Source: Thunnus maccoyii | Taxonomy: Eukaryota > Chordata > Actinopteri > Scombriformes > Scombridae | Reading direction: 5' to 3' | Assembly (NCBI RefSeq): GCF_910596095.1 | Contig: NC_056543.1 | Location: 24,438,542 to 24,502,541, forward strand | Length of the DNA stretch: 64,000 bases | Shown: piece by piece, positions 29,178-53,042 of the stretch | Numbering within the stretch: the first letter of the stretch is position 1 | How the letters are laid out: each line of letters begins with the position of its first letter | The notes under the pieces: model-generated | Seen by the model: only the letters and a program-made list of their open reading frames with translations | The model's database searches: none | Told to the model about the DNA's origin: nothing | Made by a program: the position numbers and the translations under genes

Positions 29178-32100
29178 TTATTATTATTATTATTATTATT
29201 ATTGCCAATGTTTTTTCAGGTGGGTGGAAGTTAGGACAAATATATTTTGCAAACCCTCTGACACTGTCACAATCCTGGTTGTTGATACTTTGAATAAAGA
29301 TAATGTGAAGAAAGTAGCTTCAACATTGAAAGAATAATCTTATTCCACATCATCAGACAGCATCATATATGTATCAGCTTGTTCCAAGCCTTTGTTGAAG
29401 CTATATGATATTTCTGCTAATTGACATATCCAATCCCATCTTTTATGGCTGCACCATTCCATGAAATGGAAATATTCTAGATGTGAATCATTTTATACAC
29501 TTTTGCCCAAAATGTAGCCTTACATACAGTATATGGTGTCATTGGAAACTTTGAGATCTCCGCTTAAATTTAAAATTAAGTTCTGGGCATGAATAATGTT
29601 TGCCTGCACAGTAAGACTTTGGCCCATTGGCAGCTCACTGAAGTTTTTAAAGGGGTACTCAAGCAGTTGGGTAATGCACTTCTATAAAGTTGGGGGACTC
29701 ATAAGAAACATGTTTAAAAACAGTGTCAGTATCCAAGCAGCAGAGGCCAATATATCATCACTTTTAGTGTCTATTATCTGCCAAGCTACAAAAATGCTGG
29801 AGGCTATAATGCAAATTACTGGAATCATTTGCCACATCCCCCCTGCCTGGTTTATGTCTTTTAAACTGCATGCCCTCAGTTTTTTTTAACTTGGGCTTTC
29901 TGTTACAAATTTGATGTCTTTATAAAGCTTCTTCAGAGCCACAGAAAACATTACGCAATTGTTTTTACTGGATGCGTTGTACTCCCCATGATGAATAAAC
30001 TGACAATTCAGTGGTAAACCCCTTTATGAGCATTTCAAATCTAGTTATACAAGAGAAAAATGTCAAACAAATATCAGTGTACTGTATGTCTTTAGTACAG
30101 TATTCTCTCATGACTTAGTTTGCACATCAAGTGACCCCACTTGGACCTGAGCCCACAGTTGAGAAACTCTGGTATATAAAATAACTACTACGCAAAGGAT
30201 GAATTATCCCTGAACAGAAAATGCACCACCAACAATGTTCTTCCTTCTGAAGTGAAAATCATATGTAAATGATTGTCTACAGGTGGTGATTCGAAGACTC
30301 CCACCTAACCTGTCAAAGGACCAGTTAGAAGAGCAGCTCAGTCCACTTCCATCCTATGACTATTTTGAGTTCTTTCCAGCTGATCAAAGGTAACCATGAT
30401 AGCCTCTTCAGCCAATCACAAAACTACGTATGCTTAAGATAGCAAATATTGTTGCATTGTCCCTTTTATACAGACATTGATGACTTTTTCTGTTGTCTCC
30501 ACAGTCTCTACCCGCACCTGTTCTCCAGGGCATATATCAATTTTAAAAACCCTGAAGATATCCTTCTGTTTCGGGATCGATTTGATGGCTATGTCTTCAT
30601 TGACAACAAGGGTAACTCTTGATTTTTTTAAACTCAGTTTGACTTTGATGCCGCTGTGGTGCCGTGAAGGTGGACATACACCACCACCCATTCTGCAATA
30701 TTAAATGCAAACAAAAGTGTGTTTGTTTTACAGCTGCAAACCCAATTTAATGGACAGAGAGGTGGCTTTAGAGCTTTTGTTGCCATTGTTACCATTTGAT
30801 AACTGGTGTGAAGTGACAAGCTGCCTTTTATTTCAATATTTACTCAGGCCAGGAGTACCCTGCAGTGGTAGAGTTTGCCCCCTTCCAGAAAATCTCCAAG
30901 AAGAAGCTAAAAAAGAAAGATGCCAAAGCTGGGAGCATTGAAGAAGGTAGTGAAATACAGAGCTTGCATTTTAAACAGTTATCATTATATTGTTCCAGAA
31001 TGGATTTCAGAGCTAAAGAAAATAAATCTTTGTAATCTTGGAGTATTCAAACATATGTTTCTGTAATCTTTATTCACCTTGTAATCTTAAACCCCCTCAG
31101 ACCCAGAATATAAGCGGTTCTTGGAGAACTACTCCTGTGATGAGGAGAAGTCTATGGCCAATCCTGAGACTCTGTTGGGAGAAATAGAGGCAAAGACCAG
31201 AGAGCTCATAGGTGAGTCGCAAACAAAATGATCACGAGTTTCGGAGTAACAGCTCCTACAAAATTACTGAACTTCTGTTTTTTTCTCTCCCCTTTCTTCC
31301 CACTTTGATCAATTTCAGCTAAACGGACAACACCGCTGTTGGAGTACATCAAAAATAAGAAAATTGAGAAACAAGTAAGACAGAATAAAAAATACTCAGA
31401 TTAATTGTTTCTAAAGATGTCAAACATCTTTTGTAATGCGCCACATCCTTCCCCTACAGAGAATAAGGGAGGAGAAGAGAGAGGAGAGGAGAAGAAGAGA
31501 GCTTGAAAAGAAACGGCAACGGGAGGAGGAGAAGAGAAAGCGACGAGAGGAGGAGAGACGCAAACGGAAAGAGGCAGAGAAGCAGAAGAAATTGTCTGAT
31601 AAAGACATCAAAATTAAAGTAACCATTAAAAAATCATACTTATTTGTATATCCTAGTTGTTTGGATACTTTAAATGGTGTAGCATGTAGTTACGGAATCT
31701 GTTGCCTCTTGTATTATCTGTTTTAGCTCCTAAAGAAGAGTGACAGGGACGATGACGTGGATTCAGACCGAATGAAGGACAAAAGTGAAATTGGGGATAC
31801 AGAGAGAGGGAAATGGGAGAAAGCCGGTGGACAAATGAAGTCAAAGGACCTCAAGGAAAAGTAAGGATCATCAAAATCCTTCATTGTAGCTGGGCAATTT
31901 TCTGTTAAAGTGAGCATCACGTGGGGTGGTCAGTAATAATACCACTGGTTGGTACCACTTAATGTTCAAGCATACTTAGTGTGTAAATACTAGTCACTCT
32001 AGGAATTTTACAAATAGTAAATAATTGAAGGGATCCTGTTGGTTTATGTATCCACTGCCAGAGAAGCTTGCTTTTAATAAGCTCCTTGATTGAATAGGAA

Positions 32101-36157: not shown

Positions 36158-37454
36158 GTGAGTGTACAACTGACTTTTACTAAGGTTTATCAGTACTTAT
36201 ACTTTATATAATTTAAGTTAATATTGTCTTGAAATGGACTTACGATGCACCGCGTGTCAATATTTCTTTATTTTTAGTGTGATTTTTTTTTTTTAGATCT
36301 CTACTTTTAACTTTAAACATTTGTTGTTTTTAAAGGTGCCCAGTAAAAATAGACTTGACTTAGTATTTTTAGTGAAAAAAGAAAAAAACTGTACCATGTT
36401 TTCAACATGTTTCTTCTTTTTAACAAAGAGTAGTCACAAGAAATAAACGTCTGACTTACATCCATGCTGCAATATTAGTATGGTGTGCATAGTACATAGC
36501 ATGTGACACACACAAATAGATAATTGCACACTCATAAATAATACAAATGTAAAAACATCATATATTAGTATATATAGAGAAACATTCAGTCCTCATTAGT
36601 GGACAGTGATGCAACAAATACTCTTACGGAGAGAAAGTAGAGAAAAAAAGAACTTACAAATATTCATTATTGCAATCCAATATGTTTTCCTGATCTGTCA
36701 AAATACTTGAGCATGATGTAGTGATCCTCCTGATCATTGTGGTAATAGTGTACTTTCCATTGCATAACTTCCAATGAATGTTACAATGGCTCATTGAAGT
36801 TAAGTGCGTCTTCTGCTTATTTGGTTTGTGGTAATTCCCTCCAAACCACCATGTGCACAACATGCGAGAGAAAGTGTCTAGTGAAAGTGTATTTCTCGTC
36901 TGTGTTGATGTGTGAATTTCCTCATGGCACTGAGATAGAATTCAGTTTTGTTTTCCATTTTCTGCAACTAGACTTGTTGTTTAAGCTCTTGGTTTAAGCT
37001 TTTTTATAATATCTTCACTGGCAGTCTACTTCACAGCCAGATTTACATGTGCCGATCGCACGAGCCACCTTGAGCGACAGTTGGCTCTTGTCACCACAAA
37101 TCGAGCGTGTCCTTTTCCTGTGTGAAAACTCCACCCGACACATGTGCTACTGTCACGCAATCAACAAAACAGAGCAGTGGAATTATGAAATGAATGCAAC
37201 ACTATCTGTTTCACACTTTTGAGTTCAATCAGTTTTGCACAGTTGTATGCACCACTCTTGCTTGAGAAGGTTTTTTTTTCTTGTGGTTTATGATATCTAA
37301 TATTTTTCTCATACATTCAGACATTACCAAATGATAACATGATACGCATAAATTAAGATGTACATGATACTGCTTTATTCCTGCCTGTATTTTGTAAGAA
37401 AAATTAACACTACCACAAGCCTCATTGAAGCCTTTGTTGATTTATGGCACACAG
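36158..37454. other. Intergenic or 5' intron DNA upstream of P2RY8 coding region
   Basis: AT-rich except for a slightly CpG-richer block near 37040-37160. No coding exon is supported. Confidence 0.5.
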
Positions 37455-37481
37455 GTGATGAGAGGCAGCTCCCCTCCAATC

Positions 37482-39077
37482 ATGTCGAATTCAAGCAGCA
37501 CCAAACTAGACAACGCCACCCTGAACCTGTTTCAGGATGTAAACACCAGCATCACCATCTCTGTCATGTACATTTTGGTTACTGCCATTAACCTGGTAGG
37601 AAATGGCCTTTCCATGTGGCTCCTCCTCTTCCACACGTCTCCTAAGACTCCCTCCATCATCTTCATGATTAATCTCACCCTCACCGACTTGGCCCTGGGC
37701 ACTGCCCTGCCCTTCCAGATCGCCTACCAGCTCCAAGGATACCATTGGAATCTAGGACCCAACATGTGCAGGTATCCTTTGTGTTTGCTGGACACTGCTG
37801 AAAGTATACGATAAAGGATGTCCTTAACAGAAATTCATTGAAATTTGGGAGAAACTGTCTCTTATGATGTTTTCAACTTTCATTGATTTAGGACATTCTT
37901 AAAGGAATAGTCCGACATTTTGAGAAGTAGGTTTACTCACTTTCTTGCCAGGGGTTAGATGATGAGATCGATACCATTCTCTTGTCTGTGTGATAAATAG
38001 GAAGGTACAGCCAGCAGTCAGTTAGTTTATCTTAGCGTAAAGACTGGAAACAGGGGGGAACAGCTAGCCTTCCTCTGTCCAAAAGTAACAAATTTGCATA
38101 CAAACACCTCTAAAGCTCACTAATTAACACATTATATCTCGTTTGTTAAGTCTGTACAAAAAAGTGGCTGCTATGTCTACCCATCTTCTCATCTAATTCT
38201 TGGCAAGAAAGCAAAAAACACATTTCCCAAAATGTCAAACTTTTCCTTCAAACTTTTTAATCATGATTTTGCTTTGACCAGTGATTAAATAAAATCCTTT
38301 TTCTATGTATCCACCCACAGTTTCCTTACCCTTGTCTTCTACACCAATATGTATTGTTCCATCCTGACCATGATGGCCATTGGTATTGACCGCTACCTTG
38401 GCATCGTCAGGCCCATGCTGTTCAGAGAGACCAGGGGGAGGAAGTCCATCGCTGTCATCAGCTGCCTCCTCATGTGGGCTATGGTACTGAGCGTTCTGTA
38501 CCCGCTGATGACCACAGACCTGACCTATAACATTCCTGAACTGGGGATTACCACATGCTTTGACGTGCTTAAGAAAGACATGCTCCCGTCCCTGTTGGCC
38601 TGGGTGGCCTTCCTCTTCAGCATGGTGTTTGTCCTCTTCCTCTTCCCTTTCTGTGTCACGGTATTCTGTTATGTCAGTGTCATACACAAACTGGCCAGTG
38701 ATTCCAGGACAGCCCAGAAAGAGAGAGCGATACGTCTAGCCTTCATTGTTCTCCTGGTCTTCACCCTATGCTTTGCTCCCAACAACATCCTCCTCTTGAC
38801 TCACACTGTGATGAGACTCTTCTATCAGAAGTCTCTCTACATGGCCTACAAACTGTCTCTCTGTTTTAGCTGTGTGAATAGCTGCCTTGATCCGTTCATT
38901 TACTACTTTGCTTGCAAGGACTTCAGACAAAAGCTGAGACAGATCATCAATCTGCAGATCTTGAGTAGTGGGGACTCAAAGATGGAGAATAGAGAGAGCA
39001 TATACTCTGCACACTGCACTACAGAAGGTCGTGAGACTGAACACAGCAATTTGGTGCAGCAGCACAGCAGAGTATAG
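37482..39077 (+). CDS. p2ry8: P2Y receptor family member 8 (2 coding exons)
   Basis: Exons 37482-37771 and 38321-39077 join in frame to 348 residues (human 359). The protein is a class A G-protein-coupled receptor: N-glycosylation sites in the N-tail (NSS, NAT, NTS), TM1 with GN, TM2 with LTLTD, Cys at the top of TM3 paired with ECL2 Cys (ITTCFDVL), DRY at the TM3 end (GIDRYLG), TM6 with CFAPNN, and a DPFIYY variant of NPxxY in TM7. DLTY, GITTCFDVLK and CFAPNN agree with human P2RY8 as I remember it. Human P2RY8 couples to G-alpha-13, confines B cells to germinal centres and responds to S-geranylgeranyl-glutathione; the same ligand in fish is inferred. The start at 37482 has A at -3 and aligns with the human start; 37458 is an in-frame alternative. 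The intron contains a TIR element. Poly(A) signals lie at about 39391 and 39402. Confidence 0.93.
37899..38251. mobile_element. TIR MITE in the P2RY8 coding intron
   Basis: The left end AAAGGAATAGTCCGACATTT and the right end (complement near AAATGTCAAACTTTTCCTT) are inverted repeats. Similarity extends about 50 bp inward, to CTTTCTTGCC on both sides. A second, more damaged copy lies at about 51885-52233. It has no coding capacity. It is a familiar percomorph repeat, recognised from memory. Confidence 0.75.
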
Positions 39078-40906: not shown

Positions 40907-43900
40907 ATGGTGCTGAACCCTGTCATTTCCAAGCTTGTTGGTAAACTGGTTGTGCTGGCAAGTGCTTCTCCTAGGAGACAGGAGATTCTCCGCAATGCGG
41001 TATGTGTCCGACCTGGTTTAATTCATTGGATTTGTATATTTATCATGGTATGCACAATTTGTTTGATCGTGAACACATAAAACTGTATATTTGGAGTTGG
41101 ACTCTCTACTGGCCCATGAGTCCACTTTTAGATCATAAAACTCTTATTTTTCAAATCAGAAAATGAAAGTAATTTATACTCAGACAGCTCGACAACTCTC
41201 CTAATGCTGGAATCATTTTATTGGATCATATACATATTACTATACAAATCAAACCTATTTCTTTACATATCCTACTGGGAAATATGGCTTGCATTATAGG
41301 AAAAATATACACGTCAAAGCAGAGTCATCCAAAAGTTAAAGTAATAGAAAAAGTAACACACTATAGCAGTTAAACAATAAGTGAGTAAAAATGAATTAAA
41401 ACAGGTAAAATCAATAAATCAGAATACACTTTAATGTATTGTAATGTAGCATATAGTTTCAGCGCTGCAGTGCTGGTAATTAGTATAGAGGTTGCAAATT
41501 AAGTGATTTTATTACACATCCCAAATAGTAGTGTCTCTGTCTATTGCACCTGGCCCTGAAGAGTCTACACCTCCACCTTAAAGGAGCTCAAACTCTTTAT
41601 TTAAGGGGTTTGGGGTATCTGTGTCAATTTGTAGACCTAACAGTAAGGTTTCAGATCTTTGGGCTAAATGTATGATGAATGCTTTGTCACACCTCTTACA
41701 TTGAATGATAATAACAATAATATGAATGTTTTATTGTTGTTTTGTGCTCTCCTACATATCAGGGCTTACGATTTGAAGTGGTACCATCTTGGTTTAAAGA
41801 AACACTTGACAAGGGACTTTTCAAAGCACCTCATGAGTATGCTGTTGAGACAGCCAAGCAGAAGGCTCTGGAGGTGGCCAGGAGGATGCCCTTTGTGAGT
41901 TAATCTACTTTTTATATGACTATATACAGTATATATTTTTTCTGTAGTATGACATATTGATAACATATTTTGTATTAATTTGTTTCAGAAACACCTGAAG
42001 ACTCCAGACATAGTAATTGGAGCCGACACTATTGTGGTAAGAGGAGGAAGATGACTTACTGTCTGCAGTATACTGTATGTTGCATGTTTCCTGTTCACTT
42101 TCGGCTGATGTTTTTTTATTTCCACAGACTGTAGATGGCATGATTCTGGAGAAGCCAGTGGACAAGCAAGATGCTTACAGAATGCTGTCAAGGTCAGTAT
42201 AATTTTACATTATTTCATTACATTACAGACATAAAACAGTCAGAGCCTTGTTTATAAGTCCTCTCTTCTTTTTTTTCCTGCTCCAGCTTGAGTGGTAAAG
42301 AGCACAGTGTCTTCACAGGTGTAGCTATTATCCTCTGCCATGAGAAAGAAAGTAAGTGAATAATTGTTGCAGTTGTTTTTCTGTTGAAATTTGATGAAGC
42401 AATGGATCATTTACACTGTAGTATAGTGCTTCCATGAGTGGACACATTTCATTTCTAAACTCCCCTGTCCCTCAGACGAAGAGGTGGATTACCAGTTAAT
42501 AGACTTCTACGAAGAAACAAAGGTGAAGTTTGCTGATCTCTCAGAAGATATGCTGTGGGAGTACATCAATAGTGGTGAACCCATGTGAGTATGATGGCCT
42601 GAACTTTCATACATGTAAGAACTATTGATTTTCTTTTGGTGTAGTAACCGCACCAAGCATTTAATCAGTGGAGGTCATGTTCACTGGATATGAGCATCAT
42701 GGACTTTTTGCTTGTTGGACTTTGATGCCACAGTTTTATTCCAGCTCTGTTTGTCTTGTCCTATTTGACATGAAGTGATTGTGTCAGCAAGATAGAAAAT
42801 CTGGAGTGAGGTCAGTGAGTGTATTGTTTGATTTGCTCTGCATTTGAGGAACGTATCATACATACATACAAACCCTTTGTGTATAGTGTTTTTGTATTAT
42901 TATACAGTGTTGCTTGAAAGTCTGTGAACCCTTTAGAATTTTCTGTATTTCTGCATTAATATGACCTAAAACATGATCAGATATTTATACAAGTCCTAAA
43001 ACTAGATAAAGGGAGCCCAATTAAACAAATGAGACAAAAAAATGTCATTTTTTTCATCTTTTTCATTTATTTATTGGGGAAAATTATCCAATCTTACATA
43101 TTTGTGAGGGGCAAAAGTATGTGAACCCTTGCTTTCAGTAACTGGTGTGACCCTCTTTTGCAGCAATAACTTCAACCAAATGTTTCTGGTAACTGTTTAT
43201 TAGCTCTGCACATCAGCTTGGAGGAATTTTAGGTCATTCCTCCTTACAGAACAGTCTCAACTCAGGGATGTTGGTGGGCTTCTTTGCATGAACTACATGC
43301 TTCAGGTCCTTCCACAGCATTTCTATAGGATTAAGGTCAGGACTTTGACTCGGCCTCTCCAAAACATTATCTTTCTTCTTCTTTAACCATTCTTTGGTAG
43401 AATGACTTGTGCGTTTAGTGTTGTTGTCTTACTGCATGACCCACTTTCTGTTGGGCTTCAGTTCACAGACAGATACCTTGACATTTTCCTGTAGAATTTG
43501 CTGGTACAACTCAGAACCGAAGAAGTGTAAGATTTTTGTCTCATTTGTTTAACTGATGTCTCTTTATCTAGTTTTAGGACTTGAATGGAAGTCTGATCAC
43601 GTTTTAGGTCACATTCATGCAGAAATAGAGCAAATTCTAAAGGGTTCACAAACTTTCACGCAGCACTGTATGTTGAAATGAAATGTTTGTCTGTGTGTGT
43701 CAGGGACAAGGCTGGCGGCTACGGTATTCAAGCTCTTGGTGGCATGCTGGTGGAGTACGTCCATGGAGACTTCCTCAATGTTGTGGGTTTCCCCCTCAAC
43801 CACTTCTGCAAACAGCTGGACCTTATTTACAACCGCTGTCCCTCCTTGGATCAGGAAAGTGGCTCTGTCCATTTAAACCACAACGGCACACACTTGATAC

Positions 43901-46629
43901 TCACTCAGCCTCCATCCAACCTGCCAGCTTCATCGAAACACAGCTCCTCATCCAACCCCAGACCCAACAGTCCCTCTGCCAGTCAAACAAAGCACACCCA
44001 GAGCAGCCCTTCAGCCAGTCCCATCCATAAGGTTTGCTTTTCTCACACAAAGAGCACAATTTGTTACTGTTTTCTCCTTATTTATAAGAGCTGATCTCTC
44101 CTTTTTATAGGTCAAACGGAAAGGCAGTGAAAGTGAAGTGGGTGAGAGTTCCTGGACATTGCTCAACAGCTTGTCTAAACACACAGATGAGAGAGAGGCT
44201 GAGCTCAGAGGCTCTGAGAATACAACATTACCGCTGACAACCAACAGAGGGCAGTTGATTGAGCATAACGTGAGAGAGCATAAGGACAGTGGACCTAAGA
44301 GAGAGGATTTGCAGCGAATCATTGAACTGATGGATGGATTCAAAGCCTCAAAGGTAATTAGGAATAAACTGTGATTGCAAAATAAGAATGTTTATCTATG
44401 TTGTAGTTGACTTCTATAAGATGTAATGAAACATTTAGCTGAACTTAAGACTCAAAAAAAATGGTGTAATGTTTTTAATGAACAGAAATGATAAAACAAT
44501 GTTTTTATCATTTAGCATGTGTTTCTAGATTCCAGCACATGGTTTTTGTTGTGTGATATCATCAAAATAAAAGATAAAATCTGCTTTATCATCTTAGCTG
44601 ATCGTTAAAACAAATTAAACTCTGCCTTTGTATCCATTCTGCCTCTCCAAAAATGTCCCAGGCACTGTTTACCGCATCCGAGATGTGTGTGTTCGACCTT
44701 CTACAGAGCAAACCAGGGCTGGATGCAGCACAGGTGGCCCAGGAGATCAAAGCCTCTACAAAAGGGACTGAATGCCTGCTGGAGGCTTGTGTGTCTCTGG
44801 GACTGTTGAAGAGCAAAGAGAGAAGTTAGTCAGCACTCAGCTGATAATTACAAGATGAGGCATTAACTTTAAATAAATATCTCATATGTTTTATGTTGAC
44901 TTCACTCCCAGAATACCAGAAGCCAGTGTACAAGAACACGGACATGGCAAAGCGGTTTTTATTGTCAGATGCTCCTTTTTCACTGCACGGCTACATCCAG
45001 CACTGTAACAACACTGTGTGGCCTCTTTTCTCCCACCTGGAGAGCGCTGTGAGGGAGGGAACCAACCAGCATGAGAAGGCCTTCGGCAAGAAATCTAAGG
45101 ATATGTTTCAGGTGATTATCTCCAAGTTCAGTCTTAGATTTGTTAAAATGTGGATAAAATCGTGTTGACATTGTTTTATAAATGCTATTTTCTGGTTTCT
45201 CCTGGTAATTTTTCTCTATTTACAGGATACTTTCTACAACAGTCAAGAGGTCAAACTGAGATTCATGAATGCCATGCACAGCATCGCTAAAGTTACGGGA
45301 AAAGCTGTAGCAACAGCCTTCGACCTCTCCCGTTTTAAAACCGCCTGTGACCTTGGAGGTAAGGATAGATAGAACGTAAAAGTAAAAAGTTTTCATAGAT
45401 AATAAACCATTCTTCTGCATTTCATCTTTCTGTTTTTTTTCCAGGATGCACAGGTGCCATGGCCTATGAGTTTACTAAAGCCCATCCTGGCTTGTCTGTG
45501 ACGGTGTTTGACTTGCCAGTCGTTGTTGAAATGAGTGAACATTTCCACCCGCAGCACACAGACAACAGGGTATCATTTGTAGCAGGTCAGTTTGTGATTC
45601 CACACTAAAATACTGTCATGACTGTTGGTGTTGCTAGCTGATGCTGTGTAATTAGCTTATTCTGTTGGTCTTGGTTGTCAAGTTAGAAATGTTAATGTAC
45701 ACCTACTCTCTCTGTAAGCGTAACTCATGGCTTTGTCCTCACTGTATGAATAGGAGACTTCTTTAAAGACGAGTTACCCAAAGCTGACTTGTACATCCTT
45801 GCAAGGATTCTCCATGACTGGCCAGACGAGAAAGTGCATATCCTGCTGAGTAAAATCGCAGATGCATGTACACCAGGTAAATTTCACAAAGCTATTTCAA
45901 TCTTTTCATCTTTTTTATTATGCGTTTGACTGATCAATGTTAATAATTTCAATCCATGAATTGTTATGGTATATGATTAGTATAATGTTCTCAGTCATGT
46001 GAAACTCTAGAGTTTGCAGACTATCAGTAAAACTGCAGCCACTGATTTCATTGATTAGATCTCTTGCTCTGGTTGAATGATTGTTAATAAATGAAAACAA
46101 CTTTTGTTTAGTTAAGTTTCCGCAGAAACCTGCAGACTCTTTAACCTTTGTATGACTGCTGAAACTGATAGAAAAGCCTGTTTACAAGCTGAGATGATTG
46201 CATTGCAACAAAATGTAAAACAACATATTGCAAGAGGATTGCAAGTTCAAAGCAGAACTAAAATACCAAAATCTTGATAGTGGTTTAATGTCTCCCTTGT
46301 TATTCTTGAGCTTCATTTTTTGCCATAAGGCAAAGAAATGTAAGGAGATAAGGGAGTACAAGACCACTACTGTTGTTCTCTAAAAATCTGCATACACATC
46401 ATGCACTTGCACCATGCTGCCAGGCTGTGGACTCCTGCTGAGTGAGATCTTCCTGGATGAAGACAGAAGGGGCCCGAGTCGTGGGCTGCTCCAGGCCCTC
46501 AGTATGAGCGAGGGGAAACAGAGAGGCGCAACAGAATACAGTCTGCTTTTGAAGAGCCATGGTTTCACCACAGCACAAGTCAGACATACAGACAACTTCC
46601 TGGATGCTATGCTCTGCATCAAAGTTTGA
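40907..46629 (+). CDS. asmtl: ASMTL: Maf/HAM1-like pyrophosphatase fused to HIOMT-like methyltransferase (14 coding exons, last exon copy A)
   Basis: Exons: 40907-40999, 41763-41894, 41989-42036, 42128-42192, 42287-42351, 42476-42584, 43704-44031, 44111-44353, 44662-44824, 44912-45111, 45226-45358, 45445-45585, 45754-45876, 46424-46629; together 682 residues (human 621). The ATG has an ideal context (ACCACCATGG). Residues 1-215 are a Maf-type nucleotide pyrophosphatase domain: ASASPRRQEIL (18-28), GADT (86-89), DKAGGYGIQ (about 172-180). A Ser/Thr/Asn-rich linker of about 140 residues is longer than in human. Residues 360-682 form an acetylserotonin O-methyltransferase-like domain with dimerisation helices, the SAM-binding DLGGCTG (about 526-532) and LHDWPDEK (about 594), which holds the family's catalytic His-Asp pair. 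Human ASMTL has nucleotide pyrophosphatase activity; methyltransferase activity is unproven. This form ends in exon copy A, with a possible ATTAAA poly(A) signal at 46853. Confidence 0.93.
42903..43670. mobile_element. Nonautonomous Tc1/mariner-type element in ASMTL intron
   Basis: The element begins TACAGTGTTGC and ends GCAGCACTGTA, with inverted repeats of about 140 bp (both ends contain TGTGAACCCTTTAGAATTT and CAAGTCCTAAAACTAGATAAA). TA at each border is the expected Tc1/mariner target. The interior holds a familiar degraded block but no transposase frame. It lies between coding exons ending at 42584 and starting at 43704. Confidence 0.85.
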
Positions 46630-46852
46630 CTGATGACACTTTCAGCAAGACTATATAGAAGGTCTTGTGATTTATATTGTTGGTAATATTTGCCAAAATC
46701 AAAAGCTAAGATCAGGACTGTTTTTATGATGAAATGAGTCACTAAAGCAAGTAAACCAATAACAAATGTTCAGCACTACCCTTTTTTTGCTGATCAACAA
46801 ATATAGGTAGTTGTTTTTTGAGTCATTTATAGAAAGATATATCTAATATCTA

Positions 46853-46858
46853 ATTAAA
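46853..46858 (+). terminator. asmtl: Poly(A) signal candidate for ASMTL last-exon copy A
   Basis: ATTAAA, 224 nt after the copy A stop and 113 nt before copy B. It is the second most common poly(A) hexamer, so copy A transcripts could end before copy B. Confidence 0.4.
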
Positions 46859-46971
46859 AAAGTGTGTATGTTAGAGGTATATACATTGTCATTTTTAATG
46901 TTGTATAATTAGCCACTGTATAATTGTCCTATACACTAAGCACCAGAACAATCTCTTGTGTTGGGCCGTAG

Positions 46972-47177
46972 GATGTGCAGTGCTCGTAGCTGAGACCATG
47001 TTGGACCGACAGACACCCTACTCCACTCTGCAGTCTCTTAACATGCTGGCCCAGACTGAGGGACTGGAAAGGACAGAGAGCCAGTATGCAGACTTGCTGA
47101 GCAAACATGGATTTGGGGACACACGTGTAATTCACACTAAGAACTTTCTAGATGCTTTTATTGCTGTTAAAATGTAG
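46972..47177 (+). CDS. asmtl: ASMTL alternative last exon (copy B)
   Basis: A second terminal coding exon of exactly the same length (206 nt) and phase as copy A. It has an acceptor GGGCCGTAG at 46971 and a stop TAG at 47175-47177. Joined to the exon ending at 45876 it gives a 682-residue protein. Both copies end ...HGF...V.HT.NFLDA...K, and both begin with Gly-Cys, so they are clear homologues. Copy B has the family wording NMLAQTEG.ER; copy A has ALSMSEGKQR with a three-residue gap there, offset by DEDRRGP near its start. Neither is broken. An AATAAA at about 47325 follows copy B. Tandem exon duplication is seen directly; mutually exclusive use is inferred. Confidence 0.85.
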
Positions 47178-47324: not shown

Positions 47325-47330
47325 CAATAA
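47325..47330 (+). terminator. asmtl: Poly(A) signal for ASMTL copy B transcripts
   Basis: AATAAA in the context CAATAAACTTG, about 150 nt after the copy B stop. Confidence 0.65.
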
Positions 47331-47339
47331 ACTTGATTA

Positions 47340-52233: not shown

Positions 52234-52639
52234 AAAAAAAAAAAAATGGAATAAGCATTATGATGATGTGATTGCTCATAACTTTAACTTTTACCAAACC
52301 CCAGGATATGTTTACATCAGTGGTGAAATAGCAAACACACAACTATTCAGCTTAGAACCACAACCCATTTGGCCCTGTTAAAAGCCAACAACAATCTCAT
52401 TAACATATGGAAATATTTGTTGCGGTCAGATGCGAGAGACTGTCTCCCCTTCCTGTCTTCATGTGATGTGTGAGGTGTCACTCAGAGATACAGTAGGGGA
52501 GGAGACTCTCTGTGCTGAAATGGTTGGTGACAGGGCTTTCATCCGACCCACTGAGGGCTCTTTGTTGTTATTTTGGGATCTCTCATGGGTGCAATCTGAG
52601 AGAGCAGCAGACAGACTGGGTCTCATCTCTGCACCAGTA

Positions 52640-52740
<101 letters not shown>

Positions 52741-53042
52741 CACAAACACACAGAGGTACACACACATGCACACACTAACAGGCACCTGCATATACAAAAA
52801 AATGTAATGACATGCTCACTGTCATGTCAATCAAATTGTCTAGTTTTCTGGAGATATGTGTGCATATGGAAAAACCATTAATTCTCAGTAATTGAGACAT
52901 AAGTAGAGTATTTCAGTGCAGAGGAATTATTTGTTCCATGTGATCCAATATAATTTATATGGAAGCCAAGTTATGGTGGTAAAAAGTTTTTACAAAAAAA
53001 GAACAAAACTAACTAAATACAAAAAAAATACTCATGATATGT

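Follow-up and report, generated by a model that had tools for sequence, protein, structure and literature searches.

The ASMTL gene described here is found at a single locus and ends in two homologous last exons, A and B, whose reading frames have both been kept and which encode different residues at the methyltransferase active site. Judging from the sequence, we regard it as rather probable that A and B are genuine, ancient duplicated terminal exons that serve as alternative last exons and so switch the methyltransferase site of the protein. The donor at 45877 would either be joined to A, with cleavage of the transcript before B, or skip A and be joined to B. The Maf half would be constant in both forms; the B form, which is ASMT-like at four of five residues, should be capable of methyl transfer, and in the A form, with N302S, E311Q, and Q306 missing, ordinary O-methyl transfer should be lost or strongly changed. 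That both exons are used, that they arose in tandem, and that they form a functional switch is what we infer from these features.

Gene structure and surroundings

The window, by which the whole 64-kb stretch of DNA analysed is meant, contains the ASMTL gene on the plus strand (40907-47177). Its 13 upstream coding exons (40907-45876) splice in frame to either of the two homologous terminal exons A and B, each product has 682 residues, and the two forms differ solely in the last 67 residues. The features of the gene are as follows.

40907-40999, 41763-41894, 41989-42036, 42128-42192, 42287-42351, and 42476-42584, plus strand: ASMTL exons 1-6, most of the Maf part (splice sites, open frame, Pfam)
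43704-44031 and 44111-44353, plus strand: ASMTL exons 7-8, Maf end, linker, and start of the dimerisation match (splice sites, Pfam)
44662-44824, 44912-45111, 45226-45358, 45445-45585, and 45754-45876, plus strand: ASMTL exons 9-13, dimerisation and common O-methyltransferase part (splice sites, Pfam)
45877-46423, plus strand: intron ahead of copy A, 547 nt, with the donor CAG/gtaaat common to both exon choices
46424-46629, plus strand: terminal exon A, in which DEDRRGP is retained and LVQ is missing, with N302S, a gap at 306, E311Q, and L338; stop TGA at 46627-46629
46853-46858, plus strand: ATTAAA, possible poly(A) signal of A (chance expectation in the stretch 0.54)
46972-47177, plus strand: terminal exon B, in which LAQTEG is retained and the DEDRRGP stretch is shorter by three residues, with N302, M303, Q306, E311, and L338; stop TAG at 47175-47177
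47326-47331, plus strand: AATAAA, possible poly(A) signal of B (followed by TCCTGTGTTC some 20 nt downstream; chance expectation in the stretch 0.51)

In both spliced forms, Pfam finds Maf, Dimerisation, and Methyltransf_2, all over the curated cut-offs, and the gene is therefore ASMTL, as an earlier note on this DNA had proposed. The Maf match (198.9 bits) covers protein residues 15-210, the Maf part running on from exons 1-6 into exon 7, and Methyltransf_2 scores 189.2 bits with A and 201.7 bits with B. Exons 9-13 encode H108, F156, R252, H255, D256, and W257 (human ASMT numbering). What that note had stated about the exon pair was likewise confirmed, namely the exon coordinates, the length of 206 nt for both, the entry in phase 1 from the exon whose last base is 45876, the open frames, the separate stops, and the AG acceptors.

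Outside the coding exons, the intron 42585-43703 holds a mobile-element-like stretch (42856-43681). A reverse-strand open frame within it (43234-43428) presumably carries the wording of Tc1/mariner-type transposases, SPDLNPIEMLWKDLK. Translated pieces that resemble one another (DHVLGHI.AEI..ILKGSQTF) occupy the two sides of the stretch, on opposite strands, at 42856-42984 (minus) and 43553-43681 (plus). Directly upstream of ASMTL, at 37398-39077 on the plus strand, lie two open stretches that we take to resemble rhodopsin-type receptor exons (P2RY8-like), and short open stretches at 30256-31231, also on the plus strand, presumably resemble exons of a UPF3-type protein. A long CA-type repeat, visible as HT and VC runs in the translated frames, is located at about 52600-52780.

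The Maf half of human ASMTL is a measured nucleotide pyrophosphatase (PMC3899018). In the present gene the pyrophosphatase half (40907-42584) looks intact by motif, as judged by eye; by the same kind of inspection, the Maf residues given for human ASMTL in the text of PMC3899018 (S19, R24, K65, D88, and K100) seem kept in the motifs SASPRR, ETAKQK, GADT, and LEKP. The ASMT part consists of six exons (exons 9-13 and one last exon), a match in exon count with the fish ASMTL in the text of PMC6151645. The present gene further resembles that fish ASMTL in being a Maf-ASMT fusion and in Y108H, and its N302S and E311Q recur in copy A. The mudskipper ASMTL of the same source has 13 exons and 605 residues, whereas the present model, with a single last exon included, has 14 coding exons and is 682 residues long.

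Homology, upkeep, and origin of the two exons

The local alignment of A and B reaches a raw score of 129, compared with a mean of 22 (sd 4.2, maximum 47) for 2000 shuffles, and in tblastn searches within the window each copy retrieves the other at E 3e-13. Chance similarity is ruled out by these values, and the proposal that A and B are homologous terminal exons thus stands. A search for a third copy by tblastn gave nothing else below E 0.07 in the 64-kb window. The aligned codons encode the same residue in 30 of 65 cases (46%), or in 26 of 68 if no gaps are allowed, and bases differ at codon positions 1, 2, and 3 in 29, 23, and 46 of 65 cases, respectively. A duplication artefact of the assembly is ruled out as well, given a nucleotide identity of about 47-50% over the aligned codons and the finding of copy A DNA at one place in the whole genome (a lower bound).

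The host genome that was searched comprises 54 contigs with a total of 782 Mb; the window is located on contig C11 at 24.44-24.50 Mb, and all genome-wide match counts are lower bounds. The B end was found in at least four places (B itself, A, C11 at 14.01 Mb, and C16 at 4.84 Mb) and the penultimate exon in at least three, which are ASMTL and two asmt-like genes on C11 and C16. In the stretches that were read, each asmt-like gene has a single last exon; with four last-exon and three penultimate-exon places in these counts, ASMTL alone has two last exons for its penultimate exon. A second ASMTL locus is ruled out by the penultimate-exon search, its count being a lower bound. No Maf-part match was obtained in the 10-kb stretches at the C11 and C16 asmt-like genes, which may not span the whole genes. 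A and B are adjacent homologous exons of equal entry phase, each open and with its own stop, which is the arrangement by which tandem duplicated alternative last exons are recognized.

The identical length of the two exons had been taken as evidence of duplication, a point that did not hold. Human ASMT (4a6d) reads both DEDRRGP and LVQTEG in the last-exon region, and the genome's own asmt-like last exons are ungapped at the DEDRRGP and LVQ places. Relative to these sequences, A is shorter by three residues at LVQ and B by three residues in the DEDRRGP stretch. The equal length of 206 nt is, on this alignment, a coincidence, because the copies each lost three residues at different places and the separate losses happen to balance. 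LAQTEG had been suggested as ASMT wording, but DEDRRGP cannot be set apart from it, since human ASMT has DEDRRGP as well as LVQTEG and each copy has lost one of the two.

Despite their divergence, both copies look maintained as protein. At fourfold sites, 10 of 11 differ between A and B, a saturation of synonymous change that leaves dS, and with it dN/dS, undefined; dN (NG86, with gaps) is 0.54. The similarity to human ASMT is nevertheless about equal, copy A having a raw score of 123 and copy B one of 119, whereas shuffled sequences reach 22-23. In simulations of neutral drift with local base composition and substitutions only, this score falls to about 88-89 at 0.1 substitutions per site, to about 30-32 at 0.5, and to the shuffled level of about 21-22 at 1.0. 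An open frame survives such drift in 7-9% of cases at 0.5 per site and in about 3% at 1.0, which makes open frames by themselves weak evidence; on these simulations, the retained similarity is the stronger indication of maintenance. Neither copy is decayed. The GC content is 0.52 in exon A and 0.48 in exon B, and 0.30-0.34 in the flanks.

The relationship of the copies was approached with a 21-row tree that used 18 of 80 bacterial loci and a nine-row tree that used 4 of the 80. A and B group together in both (96/90 and 84/85, respectively). In the nine-row tree, moving either copy to the three ASMT rows lowers the log-likelihood by 3.7 units and is not rejected (p-AU 0.098 for A and 0.102 for B); joining a copy to the C11 asmt-like gene by itself is disfavoured, at p-AU 0.023 for A and 0.049 for B. 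The A+B grouping thus appears moderately supported. In a further tree, which is not counted as evidence, an added human ASMTL row fell beside A+B (86/84), with A+B kept (97/82). In the 21-row tree, three bacterial loci from Terriglobia/Acidobacteria (L001, L002, and L003), whose best-segment identity of 39-41% is the highest among the 80 listed loci, join the last exons of animal ASMT and ASMTL (85/83). Viral contigs scanned with A-type and B-type end patterns gave 2 and 3 matches, respectively, and no relative.

Shared wording points in the same direction as the trees. HGF and NFLDA, which the earlier note had named as common to the two copies, occur in both A and B and are missing from human ASMT and from both asmt-like genes, which favours a duplication inside ASMTL; the HT that was also named is not exclusive to the pair, because the RHT of A is also found in the C11 asmt-like gene. 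A different origin, which we hold to be quite improbable, would be that the last intron of ASMTL captured A from a paralogous asmt gene, in the way reported for KRAS exon 4A from NRAS. An asmt-like gene does lie on the same chromosome as ASMTL (C11), RHT is common to that gene and A, A has DEDRRGP as human ASMT does, and a clade of A with ASMT is compatible with the nine-row tree at p-AU 0.098. However, such a capture would not account for HGF and NFLDA in both copies, and the union of A with the C11 gene alone is disfavoured, as given above. For a duplication within ASMTL, the size of the duplicated unit is not readable from the flanks by blastn, which gave nothing below E 0.03 beyond the shared query stretch, because blastn also misses the exon pair itself. 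The last exons of the C11 and C16 asmt-like genes are 58% identical to each other; this value and the 46% between A and B fit an early split of the two copies, but identities are not a clock.

Active-site residues and use of the two ends

The N-acetylserotonin site comprises nine conserved residues (Y108, F156, H255, D256, N302, M303, Q306, E311, and Y338) in the text of PMC6151645, and five of these nine (positions 302, 303, 306, 311, and 338) are carried by the last exon, which bears out the view that this region contributes to the substrate pocket. Copy A has S302, M303, a gap at 306, Q311, and L338, and copy B has N302, M303, Q306, E311, and L338, thereby keeping four of the five residues of ASMT. 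Y338 is missing from both copies. R252, H255, D256, N302, Q306, and E311, the set for an active ASMT-type O-methyltransferase, are all present in form B, whereas form A fails at the last three with S, a gap, and Q. Both asmt-like genes have N302, Q306, and E311.

Residues were also counted over all 80 bacterial relatives fetched; an earlier count had used 51 of the 80 loci, hand-picked for long matches, the 29 omitted having shorter ones except for L052, L071, and L078. At position 302, 64 of the 80 relatives have N and one has S. Position 311 is D in 40, E in 35, and Q in 0; in 31 the E stands before an R, as it does in ASMT, and the D alignments are less sure. Position 306 is variable, with Q in 0 and a gap in 0, and the loss of Q306 would therefore matter within the animal family only. 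In plant O-methyltransferases the residue corresponding to position 311 partners H255 in catalysis. From its conservation and from that work on plant enzymes, E311Q would be expected to affect activity. The proposal that the choice of last exon could alter substrate specificity is supported insofar as the region carries substrate-site residues, but the effect may exceed substrate choice, because A is without an acid at 311 and D or E stands there in 75 of the 80 bacterial relatives.

For fish ASMTL, the text of PMC6151645 (Zhang et al. 2017) names the differences Y108H, N302S, and E311Q, and leaves open whether every fish ASMTL has them. H108 is present in both forms of the present gene, S302 and Q311 in A only, and B has N302 and E311. 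Because N302S and E311Q match A only, the end already published for other fish ASMTL probably corresponds to A, which by the standards of that text is not an odd extra copy, and B is probably a fuller end that is undescribed in the literature covered. Provided that A and the published fish ASMTL inherited N302S and E311Q from a common ancestor, the split of A and B would predate the split from the published fish species, and B would have been kept since. A further-reaching version of the switch, which we put forward only tentatively and consider doubtful, is one between on and off, in which the A end would give a Maf pyrophosphatase with a dead or re-purposed methyltransferase and the B end a full bifunctional enzyme, both selected since early teleosts. 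If this were true, published fish ASMTL work would have covered the altered form only.

The splice acceptors of the two exons were scored with a matrix built from the 12 other acceptors of ASMTL, each left out in turn (range 0.3-12.3, median 5.5). A scores 5.2, near the median, and B scores 3.3, below 11 of the 12; among 188 other intronic AGs, 3 score at or above the level of A and 17 at or above that of B. The good acceptors ascribed to both exons thus fit A better, that of B being weak. A weak distal B acceptor behind a stronger proximal A would make A the default and B the regulated end.

The same weakness would also be expected if a single copy were in use now and the other were a recent relic, which we think unlikely. 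B would then be the likelier unused one, because the variants published for fish ASMTL match A, and only A. Yet the score of B to human ASMT (119) is hard to reconcile with such a state, as drift of merely 0.1 per site would already bring it to about 88, and B retains all but one of the five substrate-site residues of the exon, gives the higher Methyltransf_2 score, and has a kept frame with no internal stop.

Two GT sites 3' of the stop of A score 6.3, inside the donor range of the gene (4.7-11.4). They would allow A to be spliced before B as a poison or 3'UTR-forming exon, with its stop upstream of a junction and less ASMTL output as the result. We consider this highly improbable, since it leaves unexplained both the kept amino acid sequence of A and the match of A to the named fish ASMTL variants. 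Two alternative last exons, each ending its own transcript, remain the preferred reading. The poly(A) signals that had been assigned to the two copies add nothing to it: the hexamers are present, the position 46853 is right, and 47325 should be 47326, but with one found for each copy against the 0.54 and 0.51 expected by shuffling they are no evidence.

Comparison with known systems

Fish have two asmt-like genes according to the text of PMC6151645, and the two such genes of the present genome, together with H108, make a teleost host probable. Human ASMT (4a6d) and the C11 and C16 asmt-like genes share N302, M303, Q306, and E311 with copy B, and their homologous last exon carries Y338, unlike the ASMTL copies with L338. 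The C11 and C16 genes enter the last exon in the same phase as ASMTL, but have a single one. A second last exon of ASMTL is not described in the open-licence literature covered, including the portions of PMC6151645 and PMC7010912 consulted, and sequence databases may already list both ends. In a 2024 review, as far as its consulted text goes, the methyltransferase half of ASMTL is placed among the tentative methyltransferases (PMC11514484). If one gene makes a site-complete and a site-altered form, this would offer a built-in control for finding the substrate, and conclusions on fish ASMTL for which only the A end was considered would have to be checked.

Tandem pairs of homologous last exons are already known from other genes. 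KRAS 4A and 4B are ancient homologous terminal coding exons that are mutually exclusive, with 4A reportedly derived from NRAS (PMC9882654, a preprint, as given in its consulted part). As in KRAS, two homologous terminal coding exons of one vertebrate gene encode different C-termini in ASMTL; the KRAS swap alters membrane targeting, whereas the ASMTL swap would alter a folded active site, and an origin within the gene is likelier here. For human genes, 236 events of tandem duplicated exon substitution, 77 of them C-terminal, are given in the main text of PMC9741552, in which "ASMT" does not occur, and the regions concerned tend to avoid small-ligand sites. The ASMTL pair resembles these events in that tandem homologous exons would be swapped, C-terminal cases being common among them, and differs from them in that the swapped piece carries active-site residues. 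It would thus be a swapped terminal exon of a type that is untypical by that account.
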